Below, piece by piece: positions 3,109 to 10,280 of a stretch of 20,125 bases of DNA. The first letter of the stretch is position 1. Each line of letters starts with the position of its first letter. The notes beneath the pieces are model-generated. The model made no database searches. It saw only the letters and a program-made list of their open reading frames with translations, and was not told the origin of the DNA. This DNA is from a virus: the IMG/VR virus record IMGVR_UViG_3300043449_000850, positions 1 through 20,125 of that record; one strand, given 5' to 3'. Position numbers and translations under genes: made by a program.

Positions 3109-3125
3109 TTTCGTCTTCTCCAAAG

Positions 3126-3362
3126 TCATATGGCGCAGAACCTCGAGTTCGCCCCAACGATGGCAAGGTTCGCCACGTTCACGCGGTCGGGAAAGTCACC
3201 GTCCCACTGGATTGTTGCCAGGGTCCAGTCGGGCGCGGGGGACTCCAGAGCCACCACCACACCGCGAGCGTGCCCGATGTCGCCTGCGACCTGCCCGGTA
3301 CTGCGTAACCATTTCGCGCTATAGGCGACACGGTCGCCGACCTGAACTGTAAATGTCTTCAT
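3126..3362 (-). CDS. Small beta-barrel-like hypothetical protein
   Basis: A 78-residue protein with an SH3/KOW-like pattern. It opens TFTVQVGDRVAYSAKWL, continues with ARGVVVALES, and then TLATIQWDGDFPDRVNVANL, the alternation typical of small beta-barrel domains that bind nucleic acid or proteins. The ribosome site TAGGAACGG overlaps the stop codon of the upstream gene, seven bases away. The end overlaps the next gene's longer start by four bases. The fold suggestion is by eye; function unknown. Confidence 0.7.
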   Translation of the reverse strand: MKTFTVQVGDRVAYSAKWLRSTGQVAGDIGHARGVVVALESPAPDWTLATIQWDGDFPDRVNVANLAIVGANSRFCAI

Positions 3363-3370
3363 GTCCGTTC

Positions 3371-3619
3371 CTAATGTCCGCAGCAGGGGTAGTCTTCGCA
3401 GCGGCAGGGCGTGTTGAAATGAGCGCAGCCATAGCGGTCGGTGCCGAGATACCCCCGCGACCGTCCGCCAACTTTCCGCAGCCCCCCAGCAGCAAGGGCA
3501 GCAGCGGCAGCCGCGTTATGCTCTGGCACCATCCACGCCTTTGCCGCCTTATCCCATCGCCCGCCCAGTGCATGCAGTGCCGCCCGCACGGGATACGTGT
3601 TGCCTGTTATTGCGATCAT
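3371..3619 (-). CDS. GGRW-motif phage protein with Cys-rich tail
   Basis: An 82-residue protein. The first 30 residues, ITGNTYPVRAALHALGGRWD followed by KAAKAWMVP, match a small domain I know from many phage and plasmid hypothetical proteins, often fused to nucleic-acid enzymes. Its role is not established. The tail has a Cys/His cluster (YGCAHFNTPCRCEDYPCCGH) that may bind zinc. ATG 3619 is set by GGAGG eight bases upstream, and that ribosome site lies in a hairpin loop (3624-3640). The frame continues 19 codons further upstream, but no better start is seen there. Confidence 0.75.
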   Translation of the reverse strand: MIAITGNTYPVRAALHALGGRWDKAAKAWMVPEHNAAAAAALAAGGLRKVGGRSRGYLGTDRYGCAHFNTPCRCEDYPCCGH

Positions 3620-3623
3620 TTCT

Positions 3624-3640
3624 GGTACCTCCAAAGTACC
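3624..3640 (-). promoter_or_regulatory. Hairpin with Shine-Dalgarno in the loop
   Basis: On the leftward transcript, GGUAC, loop UUUGGAG, GUACC form a perfect 5-bp stem with a 7-nt loop. The loop holds GGAG, and GGAGG ends eight bases before ATG 3619. An identical loop with different arms (GACAC/GUGUC) and the same spacing precedes the gene starting at 5108. The conserved loop with compensating stems suggests an RNA element controlling translation. It could present the ribosome site, or be covered by a protein. Next to it, CGTTAC is directly repeated at 3641-3646 and 3649-3654. Confidence 0.6.
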
Positions 3641-3690
3641 CGTTACTACGTTACACCCTGAGATGTCAGAATGCAATCAAAAATTACTAC

Positions 3691-3774
3691 TTAGTCTGCT
3701 ATCAGATAAAAGAACGTCGTCCAGGTGACGGCTACCGCGACCCAGAGGGCCACATATGCGATGGCGCGGAGCAT
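3691..3774 (-). CDS. 27-residue single-span membrane peptide
   Basis: A very short ORF starting at an ATG that overlaps the TAA of the upstream gene (TAATG) and ending at TAA 3691-3693. The product begins MLRAIAYVALWVAVAVTWTT and ends FFYLIAD. It has one Arg near the N terminus and then a hydrophobic span rich in Val, Ala and aromatic residues. It is like the peptide at 818-907 in design, but not in sequence. An inner-membrane location is predicted; candidate roles (exclusion, lysis control, membrane remodelling) are speculative. The 3620-3690 gap after it carries the Shine-Dalgarno hairpin of the next gene. Confidence 0.55.
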   Translation of the reverse strand: MLRAIAYVALWVAVAVTWTTFFYLIAD

Positions 3775-4007
3775 TAGCTGGCCTCCCGGACGTGTGAAAC
3801 GAGGTAATCATGGTACATAACCTCCCGTGCTTCTGGGTACGCTGAAAAATACCAGCGTGCTGCACGCATCGCAAACAGCGCCGCAGTGTTAGGTGCCCCG
3901 CTGGCCACGTAAAACTTGAGGGTTAGCACTTCCAACCGTGCCATGTTGATGCAGGTGGCGCGGTATTTCTCCAACTTCGTTTCGTAGCTCGTTTTCATGT
4001 TCGTCAT
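3774..4007 (-). CDS. Hypothetical protein
   Basis: A 77-residue protein beginning MTNMKTSYETKLEKYRATCI, then helical stretches (ALFAMRAARWYFSAYPEARE). The start overlaps the TAA of the upstream zinc protein (TAATG) and the stop overlaps the start of the membrane peptide, so it is coupled on both sides. A second ATG three codons in (MKTSYETK) is an alternative start. No family recognised. Confidence 0.65.
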   Translation of the reverse strand: MTNMKTSYETKLEKYRATCINMARLEVLTLKFYVASGAPNTAALFAMRAARWYFSAYPEAREVMYHDYLVSHVREAS

Positions 4008-4303
4008 TACGCCACCGCCTTACGGCCCGTGCCGCCGCAGCGGAAGCACTCACCGCCCTTGTGGTGCGCGTAGAAGTAGACAGTGCCCGTACCGTTGCAC
4101 TTGCCACACTTCCTTGCGTCTGATTCCTTCTTGATGGCCGCAACCATTGCAACGTGGGCAGCGTGAGCCGCTTCGTTAGACCGGGCGATTTCTTCAGCCG
4201 AAAGAATAGGGGAATTGGCGAACAGTTCGGTAAGCCAGTCGTTGTTGTTTCCTGTGTTATCGTACTGGATTGGCACAACAGGCCACGATGCAAAGTTTGT
4301 CAT
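4007..4303 (-). CDS. Small CxxCxGxG zinc-motif protein
   Basis: A 98-residue protein. Its C-terminal third holds two CxxCxGxG repeats (CGKCNGTG at about 66-73 and CFRCGGTG at about 86-93) separated by an aromatic/His-rich spacer. This is the DnaJ-type zinc-centre motif, found alone in many small phage proteins. The N-terminal part is acidic and helical. ATG 4303 follows a clear GGAGACGAA ribosome site. It may bind nucleic acid or an unfolded partner, but has no J-domain and is not a chaperone by this evidence. It is coupled to the next gene through TAATG. Confidence 0.75.
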   Translation of the reverse strand: MTNFASWPVVPIQYDNTGNNNDWLTELFANSPILSAEEIARSNEAAHAAHVAMVAAIKKESDARKCGKCNGTGTVYFYAHHKGGECFRCGGTGRKAVA

Positions 4304-4338
4304 TTCGTCTCCTCATCAGTGCCGGATTGACCGGACAG

Positions 4339-4352
4339 ACGCCCGAAGGCGT
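4339..4352 (-). other. C(UUCG)G hairpin between two leftward genes
   Basis: On the leftward transcript ACGCC, UUCG, GGCGU form a 5-bp stem with the extra-stable UUCG tetraloop, in the 61-base gap between the genes ending at 4365 and starting at 4303. No U-tract follows, so it is more likely an mRNA-stability or processing element than a terminator. Confidence 0.5.
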
Positions 4353-4364
4353 TTCGGAGTTGTG

Positions 4365-5108
4365 TTACAGGCTAATCTGAATAAGCGGATTAGACCGGGC
4401 GATAACCGAGTGGTCCTGGATCACGATAGACTTCCGGCGGTCGTTTGCCGTGGTTCCATTGCAGAGTCGGCAATCAGAGCACGTCGTTTTTTTACCCGCT
4501 TCCGCAGATGCCGGACACGAGATCTCGCCGACAAGCTTAGAAGTGTCACCATATCCCGCAACCCGAAAATATCGCCATCCGTCCGCGACAGCGCGAACCG
4601 CATCAGCGGCACTATCGCAGCTTGCCATGACGTAGGGACGCAACCATGTAGCCGTTTGCCACTGATGCGTATATCCGGTACGACCACGCGCCACACCAGC
4701 GATAAGCTCAACTAACCATTCCGGCATCATGGCAGGGTCGCCATATGCGCCAAAACGGACTAACAGCCCGGCAAACACGCCAGCTATCTCAGATCGGTCG
4801 AGGCGACGATATCCGCCCCGTGCGTAACAGGCATGCACGCCACGCGCGCCCTTGCCCAAATTGACGTAGCAGCGTCTGGTACCGGGAATCATGACACCGT
4901 CGGTATATTTCGCACGATGGATGCAGTTCCCACAGATGGCAACATCGTTACCAGATCTGACACCATCCATAGGCGACTCATGTCGCAGGATGATGTAGAT
5001 TTGCACCATAGCGCCCGTCTTGGCGTTTGTGCTGGCATTCTTGAAACCCGTCGCGACGACAGCGATATTGTCATCCTCATGTAGAACGTAACCGTTTTTG
5101 TTGATCAT
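4365..5108 (-). CDS. Conserved Cys-rich phage protein of unknown function
   Basis: A 247-residue protein, the first and largest gene of the leftward train. Diagnostic blocks are NAKTGAMVQIYIILR (about 28-42), GNDVAICGNCIHR (about 53-65), CYVNLGKGARGVHACYARGGY (80-100, with Cys80 and Cys94) and a C-terminal CSDCRLC (210-216). I recall this pattern, a KTG-MVQ block followed by CG-C-HR and CYV, as a domain of unknown function widespread in phages (DUF7227-like). The Cys pairs suggest a metal site. ATG 5108 is set by GGAGG eight bases upstream, inside a hairpin. A CTG/TTG-type extension would run into the hairpin and was not used. Its place as first gene after the divergent control region suggests early expression. 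Confidence 0.75.
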   Translation of the reverse strand: MINKNGYVLHEDDNIAVVATGFKNASTNAKTGAMVQIYIILRHESPMDGVRSGNDVAICGNCIHRAKYTDGVMIPGTRRCYVNLGKGARGVHACYARGGYRRLDRSEIAGVFAGLLVRFGAYGDPAMMPEWLVELIAGVARGRTGYTHQWQTATWLRPYVMASCDSAADAVRAVADGWRYFRVAGYGDTSKLVGEISCPASAEAGKKTTCSDCRLCNGTTANDRRKSIVIQDHSVIARSNPLIQISL

Positions 5109-5112
5109 GTAA

Positions 5113-5129
5113 GACACCTCCAAAGTGTC
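5113..5129 (-). promoter_or_regulatory. Hairpin with Shine-Dalgarno in the loop
   Basis: On the leftward transcript, GACAC, loop UUUGGAG, GUGUC form a perfect 5-bp stem; GGAGG ends eight bases before ATG 5108. Loop, stem length and spacing are the same as at 3624-3640, while the stem bases differ but still pair. This looks like a shared translational control hairpin. The core also resembles the DNA palindromes at 8175-8216 (CACTTT...GGTG), so a DNA operator is the other possibility. Confidence 0.6.
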
Positions 5130-5199
5130 GGTTAATACTGCACAATAGCGTCAAAAATAGCTAAGTTGATTAAAAAACAGAATCATGTGATCTGTTACT

Positions 5200-8228: not shown

Positions 8229-10280
8229 ATGGCTCAGATGGACATTTCGGAACTCGAAGGGATCGTTTCATCGGCAATCGTTGACGCGGCCAGCTTCATC
8301 GACTCCGACGTGTCGCCGCTCAGGGCGAAGGCAACGCGCTACTACAACGCGGAGCCGTTCGGAGATGAGCGGGCAGGCCGAAGTCAGGTAATCTCGCAGG
8401 ACGTGCGGGACACGGTAAATGCAATACTGCCAAGCCTGTTGCGGATATTCTTTGGATCTGAGCAGGCCGTCCAATTCGTGCCAAAGTCGGCGGAAGACCT
8501 GCCGATAGCAGAACAGGCGACCGATTACGTTCAATACGTCATCTCCGAAGATAATCCGGGTTTTCTCACGTTTCACGGCTGGTTCAAGGACGCGCTGATT
8601 AACAAGACCGGCATTGTCAAGTATTGGGCCGACGACGCCACGCGCATCGAATCCCGCAAGTTTCACTACCTCGACGCGGATCAGGTCATGGGTTTGTTGT
8701 CCGAGGAAGGCGTAGAGCTTGTCGAATCCGAGGAGGAAAACGGCTACACCTCAATTACCGTTCGCAAGAAAACGAACGACTATCGGCTTTGCGTTGCGAA
8801 CATCCCGCCTGAAGAGTTCCTGATTTCTCGCGAAGCCAAAACACTGGAAGACGCAACCCTGGTGGCGCATCGCACCGAAAAAACGGTTTCCGACCTGATA
8901 GCAATGGGCTACACCGAAGATCAGGTTGCCGCGGCTGGCATCGGGGACACTACCCTTGAAATGAACGACGAGCGGCTGGCGCGTTCGCCGTGGAATATCA
9001 CCATCGGGGCCGAGGACTACTCGAACCCGGCGCAGCGTCGAGTTGCCTACTGCGAGGCGTTCCTCAAAGTTGATTTTGACGGCGATGGCATTGCCGAACT
9101 GCGGCGCATTTGCACGATGGGCACAACTCACAACGTGGTGCATAACGAACTTGCCGAGAGCCGCCCGTTTGCCCTGATTTGCCCGGACCCGGAGCCGCAC
9201 ATGGTGATCGGAAACTCCATCGCCGATCTGGTGATGGACATCCAGCGGATTAAGTCTCAGGTATGGCGGCTCATGCTTGATTCTCTTGGGCAGGCCATCA
9301 ACCCGCGAACTGCGGTAGTTGAGAATCAGGTAAACCTTGACGACGTGATGAACGACGAAACGGGCGGCATTATACGAATGCGTGCTCCCGGCATGGTTCA
9401 GCCGTTCAACCAGCCTTTCGTGGGCCAGAACGCCCTGCCTGTGCTGGCGTTACTGGATGAGACGAGGGAATCCCGCACAGGTATTACAAAGGCTTCACAA
9501 GGCTTAAACGCTGACGTTCTCCAAAGCACGACTAAAGCGGCGGTAGCTGCAACGGTCACGGCGGCGCAAGAGCATATCGAAATGATTGCCCGGATTTTTG
9601 CGGAAACCGGGATAAAGGATCTGTACCGGGGACTGCTCAAACTGGCGGTTCAGTGTCAGGACAAAGAGCGCATCGTTCGCCTGCGTAACAAGTTTGTCGC
9701 CGTCCAGCCTTCCATGTTCGACCCGATGATGGACGTTTCGGTTAACGTCGGGCTGGGCGGTGGAACACGCGAAGACAAGCTGGCCACACTCACCGGCATT
9801 GCGGCCAAGCAGGAAGCCATCCTGCAAACGCTTGGCCCGTCAAATCCCATTTGCACGTTGAGCCAGTATTCGGCAACCCTGCGGAAGATGGCCGAAATGG
9901 CCGGATTCAGAGACGCAAGCCAGTTTTTCAACGCAGTGCCCGCTGACTACCAGGCCCCAACTCCACAACCCGCTGAAGACCCGCAGGCAAAAACGGCAAT
10001 GATACTTGCTCAGGTTGAGCAGGAAAAGACGCGGGCCAGGATTTCAACCGACGCGGGCGAATTAGACCTGAAGCGCGACCAGATGGTGATGGACGATGCG
10101 CGGGAGCGTTACAAGATTATGGTTGACAGCCGGGTTAAACTTGCTGAACTCCAACTGAAATATGGCGCTGACATGATGTCCGTGAACGCCAAAATCGACG
10201 CAGACAACTTGCAAATGCAGCAAGACGCGCAGGCGCAGGTTAACGCCTCTAATCTACCTCAGGAGCAACCCGTCCAGTGA
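8229..10280 (+). CDS. Portal protein (P22-type)
   Basis: A 683-residue protein forming the dodecameric DNA gate at one capsid vertex. Typical P22-portal-family blocks are GRSQVISQDVRDTVNAILPS (about 51-70), AEQATDYVQYVISEDNPGF and WFKDALINKTGIVKYW near the N terminus. Further in are IPPEEFLIS and, in the core, GITKASQGLN. The C-terminal part is Gln/Ala-rich, with a coiled-coil-like barrel segment. ATG 8229 has no ribosome site; a predicted transcription start at about 8228 suggests leaderless translation. ATG 8238 (MDISELEG) is the alternative and also lacks one. It is the first gene of a rightward operon running to the window end, overlapping the next gene by GTGA. Confidence 0.9.
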   Translation: MAQMDISELEGIVSSAIVDAASFIDSDVSPLRAKATRYYNAEPFGDERAGRSQVISQDVRDTVNAILPSLLRIFFGSEQAVQFVPKSAEDLPIAEQATDYVQYVISEDNPGFLTFHGWFKDALINKTGIVKYWADDATRIESRKFHYLDADQVMGLLSEEGVELVESEEENGYTSITVRKKTNDYRLCVANIPPEEFLISREAKTLEDATLVAHRTEKTVSDLIAMGYTEDQVAAAGIGDTTLEMNDERLARSPWNITIGAEDYSNPAQRRVAYCEAFLKVDFDGDGIAELRRICTMGTTHNVVHNELAESRPFALICPDPEPHMVIGNSIADLVMDIQRIKSQVWRLMLDSLGQAINPRTAVVENQVNLDDVMNDETGGIIRMRAPGMVQPFNQPFVGQNALPVLALLDETRESRTGITKASQGLNADVLQSTTKAAVAATVTAAQEHIEMIARIFAETGIKDLYRGLLKLAVQCQDKERIVRLRNKFVAVQPSMFDPMMDVSVNVGLGGGTREDKLATLTGIAAKQEAILQTLGPSNPICTLSQYSATLRKMAEMAGFRDASQFFNAVPADYQAPTPQPAEDPQAKTAMILAQVEQEKTRARISTDAGELDLKRDQMVMDDARERYKIMVDSRVKLAELQLKYGADMMSVNAKIDADNLQMQQDAQAQVNASNLPQEQPVQ

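Follow-up and report, generated by a model that had tools for sequence, protein, structure and literature searches.

The 20,125-base virus record IMGVR_UViG_3300043449_000850 from IMG/VR, analysed over its whole length and hereafter called the window, codes for a phage portal protein of phrog_1216 and carries a leftward operon, in which the genes for a 247-aa and an 82-aa protein are each preceded by a small hairpin built around the Shine-Dalgarno (SD) sequence (Table 1). At both sites the order is an arm, a 7-nt core ending in the SD sequence, the second arm and the start codon, and the GGAGG ends eight bases before the ATG. The coordinates, arms, shared core and spacing had been given for the window in an original prediction made from the sequence alone, and they matched exactly when the minus strand was re-read. 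No Rfam family matched either hairpin at E ≤ 3. The same prediction placed the SD sequence in an open 7-nt loop closed by a 5-bp stem, which is not the structure predicted by RNAfold: an extra U·G and an extra U-A pair form inside the drawn loop, resulting in a 7-bp stem with a UGG triloop and an energy of -5.7 to -5.8 kcal/mol. Because these two pairs close within the supposed 7-nt loop, the SD sequence would be partly paired and half displayed.

Table 1 Features of the leftward operon in the window (RBS, ribosome-binding site)
Feature	Position	Strand	Details
SD hairpin of the 247-aa gene	5113..5129	-	arms GACAC (5129-5125) and GTGTC (5117-5113), core TTTGGAG (5124-5118), GGAGG 5121-5117, ATG at 5108
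SD hairpin of the 82-aa gene	3624..3640	-	arms GGTAC (3640-3636) and GTACC (3628-3624), core TTTGGAG (3635-3629), GGAGG 3632-3628, ATG at 3619
Third RBS with the same core, without a stem	3118..3126	-	ACTTTGGAG; within the operon, overlaps the upstream TGA stop
Upstream leader block, promoter-like	3665..3683	-	TTTTTGATTGCATTCTGAC; TTGCAT-17-TAACGT-7-hairpin
Upstream leader block of the 247-aa gene	5147..5157	-	TTTTTGACGCT; among the three genomes, shared with the L003 leader only
247-aa gene, first of the operon	4365..5108	-	from ATG; phrog_2554
Candidate type II hammerhead ribozyme	4303..4359	-	between the 247-aa stop and the 98-aa ATG; 36.8 bits (gathering 37), E=7e-5
82-aa gene	3371..3619	-	GGRW motif; weakly DUF5710-like, E=1e-4, below the Pfam cut-off

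The operon is shared by two related records, IMGVR 3300027770_000164 (L003) and 3300027754_000180 (L007), and a fourth record, 3300009161_000786 (L004), has the same sites as L003. Seven hairpin sites were found over three genomes, two in the window, three in L003 and two in L007, all of them on the strand of the leftward operon. The GACAC/GTGTC hairpin is present again in L003 (7983) and in L007 (6113), with the stem lengthened there to 6 bp, and the GGTAC/GTACC hairpin recurs in L007 (7984) and at two sites in L003 (10672 and 10926). In the aligned hairpins 35 of 35 base pairs are kept, compared with 14-60% in slid controls, and two of the five pairs differ on both sides between the arm types (G-C/A-U and U-A/C-G). 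The pairing is supported since two compensated arm types surround one core, which suggests that the arms pair as RNA and that the pairing itself matters. We consider this covariation to be the useful new fact, as it provides direct evidence for RNA pairing of the arms. The search of related phages proposed along with the original prediction thus found the hairpin in two relatives, with the arms paired in every copy. The string ACTTTGGAGGT is kept in all seven copies, and the distance from the arm to the start codon is 3-4 nt; the fixed spacing of eight bases between the SD sequence and the ATG, which holds at both window sites, is seven in the L007b leader and was dropped as a defining feature.

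Outside these records, the core was not found at the starts of distant homologues of the two genes (L005, L006, L008 and L009), and no repeated SD hairpin was detected in phiM5, MW202879 or further capsid relatives. A megablast search against GenBank phages gave no match, and the best GenBank relatives of the portal protein are at most 48% identical.

The claim that two such stems around an identical loop are unlikely by chance was borne out by three estimates. IMG/VR was scanned with a pattern blind to the 5' arm, ACTTTGGAGGTNNCN{3,4}ATG (equivalent to ACTTTGGAGGTNNCN3-4ATG). Among the matches listed there are at least 89 unrelated distinct sites, and 3 of these 89 form the three further pairs, with 1.4 expected; in the related phages six of the seven distinct sites pair (Fisher p ~6e-7 against the unrelated sites, the sites not being independent). 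If each of the two arm types is counted once, the probability that both pair by chance is 1/64 squared (~2e-4), which rises to ~7e-4 when the three cores of the window are taken into account. The third estimate came from a scan for the layout itself, defined as 5-bp arms, a 7-nt core ending in the SD sequence, a start codon and an open reading frame (ORF) no shorter than 40 codons. Over 124 capsid relatives, with 3.28 Mb of strand between them, it occurs 8 times against 2-3 times in first-order Markov shuffles, and none of these genomes has the layout twice on one core; the window has it twice, with an identical core, against ~0.1 expected. A wider family based on the TTTGGAG core was also considered and rejected, as pairing outside the clade was at chance level among the IMG/VR pattern matches listed.

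The genes following the hairpins are less constant than the hairpins themselves. The 247-aa protein is 88% identical in L003 and has relatives in many phages (~41-45% identity among the best matches), and in L007 it is replaced by a GP88 protein (PF17338) beneath the GACAC/GTGTC leader. The 82-aa protein is 93% identical in L007 and no relatives of it were found among GenBank phages. In L003 a 59-aa gene stands in its place beneath the GGTAC/GTACC leader, with blastn conservation at this locus limited to a 39-bp stretch around the leader, and another such leader precedes a 68-aa gene. Judging from these comparisons, it is the leader, rather than the gene, that is conserved, and it forms a unit of its own whatever gene follows. 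Of the original suggestion that an RNA element coordinates the two genes, the part concerning a paired element common to several gene starts is upheld by the covariation and recurrence, and the part concerning regulation of this specific gene pair is not. Because the relatives carry the same leaders before the GP88, 59-aa and 68-aa proteins, the element would be a leader cassette and not a regulator specific to one pair of genes.

It was also stated originally that no element with this loop had been described. The sequence is indeed undescribed as far as we could find, but cluster K and cluster EF actinophages have start-associated sequences (SAS), short repeats 3-9 nt ahead of start codons, that match it in layout (PMC3203893, PMC7302621). 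The cluster K SAS, 5'-GGGATAGGAGCCC, is present in 11-19 copies per genome in the RBS position, mostly at genes with a spacer of more than 50 bp; the authors noted a GGG-N7-CCC symmetry and proposed no SAS hairpin (PMC3203893). Microbacterium phages of cluster EF carry about ten copies of an SAS-like motif, 5'-GGGAAAGGACCCC (PMC7302621). Like the cluster K SAS (GGG-ATAGGAG-CCC), the window element occupies the RBS position at several gene starts per genome, in one orientation, before differing gene families, mostly with an upstream spacer and in the non-structural arm of the genome; both have symmetric arms about a 7-nt core ending in GGAG. The promoter-like blocks just upstream may correspond to the extended SAS of cluster K (ESAS, a 17-bp inverted repeat or promoter; PMC11373665). 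The cluster K SAS differs in its core and arms, in its weak 3-bp stem (-1.9 kcal/mol), in its actinobacterial hosts and in copy number, the window clade having 2-3 hairpins per record, these records possibly being fragments. The cluster EF SAS (GGG-AAAGGAC-CCC) likewise consists of an arm, a 7-nt core with the SD sequence and an arm followed by the start codon; its core is different and no sequence relation to the window phage was seen. Lacking both the K and EF consensus sequences and the ten or so copies per genome, the window element stands outside the K and EF SAS sequence families, with the same layout and probably the same way of working.

Some compensation is also visible in the SAS phages themselves. 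In six cluster K genomes the ATAGGAG core precedes a possible start codon at 111 sites, some of which are not proven gene starts. Where both letters of an arm pair are off consensus, 12 pair and 1 does not; one-sided breaks are commoner, with 23 cases. One SAS copy in the EF phage AnnaSerena has compensated arms CCTG/CAGG. Two apparently compensated cluster K cases, in Pixie near the integrase and a 9-bp hairpin in Aminay, cannot be assigned with confidence to SAS-type starts and did not count as proof; the Aminay hairpin (L166 12149) has ATAGGAG in its loop and lies ~50 nt upstream of a regular SAS. A hairpin model would give the SAS repeat a structural explanation that can be tested, and compensated arms are worth seeking in other SAS phages. 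More tentatively, and with a good deal of doubt, we suggest that hairpins which wrap the SD sequence in a fixed 7-nt core between freely covarying arms may have arisen convergently as a class of phage translation element, with the K SAS, the EF SAS and the window clade as separate inventions, each read by a ribosome-associated factor or the 30S subunit and each allowing genes to be swapped under a constant leader.

As to the way of working, we favour, with roughly even confidence, a transferable leader cassette of a small clade of uncultured phages, with a weak hairpin as the gate to a strong ribosome site. The hairpin would enclose a strong SD sequence (GGAGGU) at the head of genes with their own upstream spacer, and we infer that it would act in cis on translation initiation. 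The cost of opening, ~5-7 kcal/mol, would be set by the hairpin whatever gene or upstream sequence adjoins it, and would be offset by strong pairing of the SD with the anti-SD sequence (~-10 kcal/mol); the outcome would be a defined, moderate translation rate, and no binding protein would be needed for such a gate. The calculated opening cost at the seven hairpin sites is 5.0-6.8 kcal/mol in 13 of 14 foldings and 3.6 kcal/mol in the remaining one, each site being folded once with 90 nt of upstream sequence and once without it, and GGAGGU pairs with the anti-SD at ~-10.2 kcal/mol if the standard bacterial anti-SD is assumed. Opening costs 0.9-3 kcal/mol at the two sites that have the core but lack the stem, one of them the window RBS at 3126-3118, which shares ACTTTGGAG with its likewise stemless L007 counterpart.

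Several observations weigh against the cis gate and the pairing on which it depends. Folding z-scores of the short leaders are modest (-0.2 to -1.6), and the fold predicted for a longer leader of the 82-aa gene (win82) is an alternative one that draws on upstream sequence. The comparison covers three genomes with two arm types only, and a single event may account for the double-sided change. Finally, the core is conserved beyond the SD sequence (UUU, AC/GU) and at stem-free sites, which a purely cis-acting gate leaves unexplained.

The last point leads to a translational operator, a possible though doubtful alternative in which a phage RNA-binding protein would read the core in the hairpin and repress or activate all carrier genes as a small regulon. 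Core conservation beyond the needs of SD pairing speaks for such a reader, and the hairpins are of uniform strength, close to where binding of a ligand could tip them; a precedent is T4 gp43, which binds a hairpin located upstream of the RBS of its own gene (PMC3014915). The presence of the core at stem-free sites argues against it, as does the lack of a relevant family match among the leftward proteins tested. Moreover, since the leader is kept under swapped genes, autogenous control by each product is unlikely and a general function is favoured. The zinc protein originally suggested as a possible ligand gained no support from the analysis; the 98-aa protein (4303-4007) has a sub-threshold likeness to DnaJ-type and anti-TRAP zinc motifs. 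A related 118-aa zinc-motif protein is encoded in L007 from 6909 onward; it differs in the N-terminus and matches the 98-aa protein at 94% identity over its last 82 residues. The T4 leaders of gene 43 and gene e are similar to the window element in that RNA structure at the initiation region tunes or represses initiation (PMC3014915). They differ in that the gene 43 operator is a gene-specific hairpin upstream of the SD sequence bound by gp43, the gene e SD sequence is sequestered in long early transcripts, and the T4 leaders share no multi-gene element; a RegA-type operator is an A+U-rich unstructured site overlapping the AUG, whereas the sites described here are structured and upstream of it (PMC3014915).

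A less probable alternative to the cis gate is a 5'-terminal stem-loop, with transcription starting at the hairpin, which would shield the mRNA end from decay while the SD sequence is kept adjacent. The blocks TTTTTGATTGCATTCTGAC and TTTTTGACGCT occur within the three genomes only upstream of hairpins, and the former is promoter-like. The arrangement TTGCAT-17-TAnnGT-7-hairpin fits two distinct leaders, L007a and win82, the latter being identical to L007b in this region, so that both spacings are equal in the two L007 leaders; in addition, the ribozymes of the operon would make new 5' ends beside other RBSs. On the other side, leaders win252 and L003a are spaced differently, a consensus promoter scan of the minus strand gave no match, and the L003c hairpin closely follows a twister ribozyme and hence is not at a promoter start.

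It is quite improbable that the arms are functionless and that a good RBS with a flanking palindrome was merely copied between leaders by hitch-hiking, or arose by chance. L003b and L003c are near-identical copies, across the hairpin the leader of the 82-aa gene does not differ between the window and L007, and there are two arm types only, all of which would suit copying; against this, two differing arms pair perfectly about the same core, at a chance of ~2e-4 to 7e-4, and the sites listed in the arm-blind control pair at chance level.

More improbable still is a DNA operator, in which the inverted repeat would bind a dimeric regulator beside a promoter and RNA pairing would be incidental. Inverted repeats are common near promoters, and in cluster K the ESAS repeats are regarded as promoters or DNA sites (PMC3203893, PMC11373665), but one protein wants one half-site, while here there are two, each perfectly symmetric, about an asymmetric centre which is always in RBS register and orientation. 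A target or decoy for an endoribonuclease cutting SD sequences, as T4 RegB cuts GGAG, is hardly credible; a search of the four clade records, which may be fragments, found no homologue of RegB (PF10715).

The operon in which the constant leader stands over exchanged genes also bears predicted self-cleaving ribozymes at gene junctions. The hammerhead of the window ends at the ATG of the 98-aa gene, and its conserved core CUGAUGAGGAG holds the SD sequence of that gene; the homologue in L003 (8988-9044) scores 38.2 bits, above the threshold. Twister-P5 ribozymes were found in L007 (6834-6886) and L003 (10860-10912), each ahead of an RBS and either right behind a stop codon or overlapping it, and the L003 twister ends 10 nt before the first arm of the third SD hairpin. 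The ribozyme class is swapped at the first junction of the operon, with a twister in L007 and a hammerhead in the window and L003. Both ribozymes belong to known classes, hammerheads near phage genes have been described previously (PMC3088659), and we infer from sequence that cleavage may occur at these stop/start junctions.

Isolated SD hairpins were met elsewhere. Those in L109 (GTCAC/GTGAC, at a gene start) and in the large contigs L148, L151 and L155 (GATAC/GTATC) are not claimed as members of the family. The L109 hairpin, GTCAC-TTTGGAG-GTGAC on the minus strand at ~7225-7209, is followed by a long ORF and immediately preceded by a terminator-like stem, and may be an independent case. The genome of L007 (3300027754_000180) has a lone SD hairpin with an 8-nt core, CGGGC-GATAGGAG-GCCCG, before an HNH-like gene (L159, 13950-13975). 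An 8-bp SD hairpin, GCACGCCA-ACAGGAG-TGGCGTGC, lies ahead of a GTG start in a capsid relative (L187, 10475). An unrelated phage contig (L098) has two SD hairpins with differing arms at gene starts, TTTCC-ATAAGGA-GGAAA and TTTTC-GTAAGGA-GAAAA, at 9863 and 11030.
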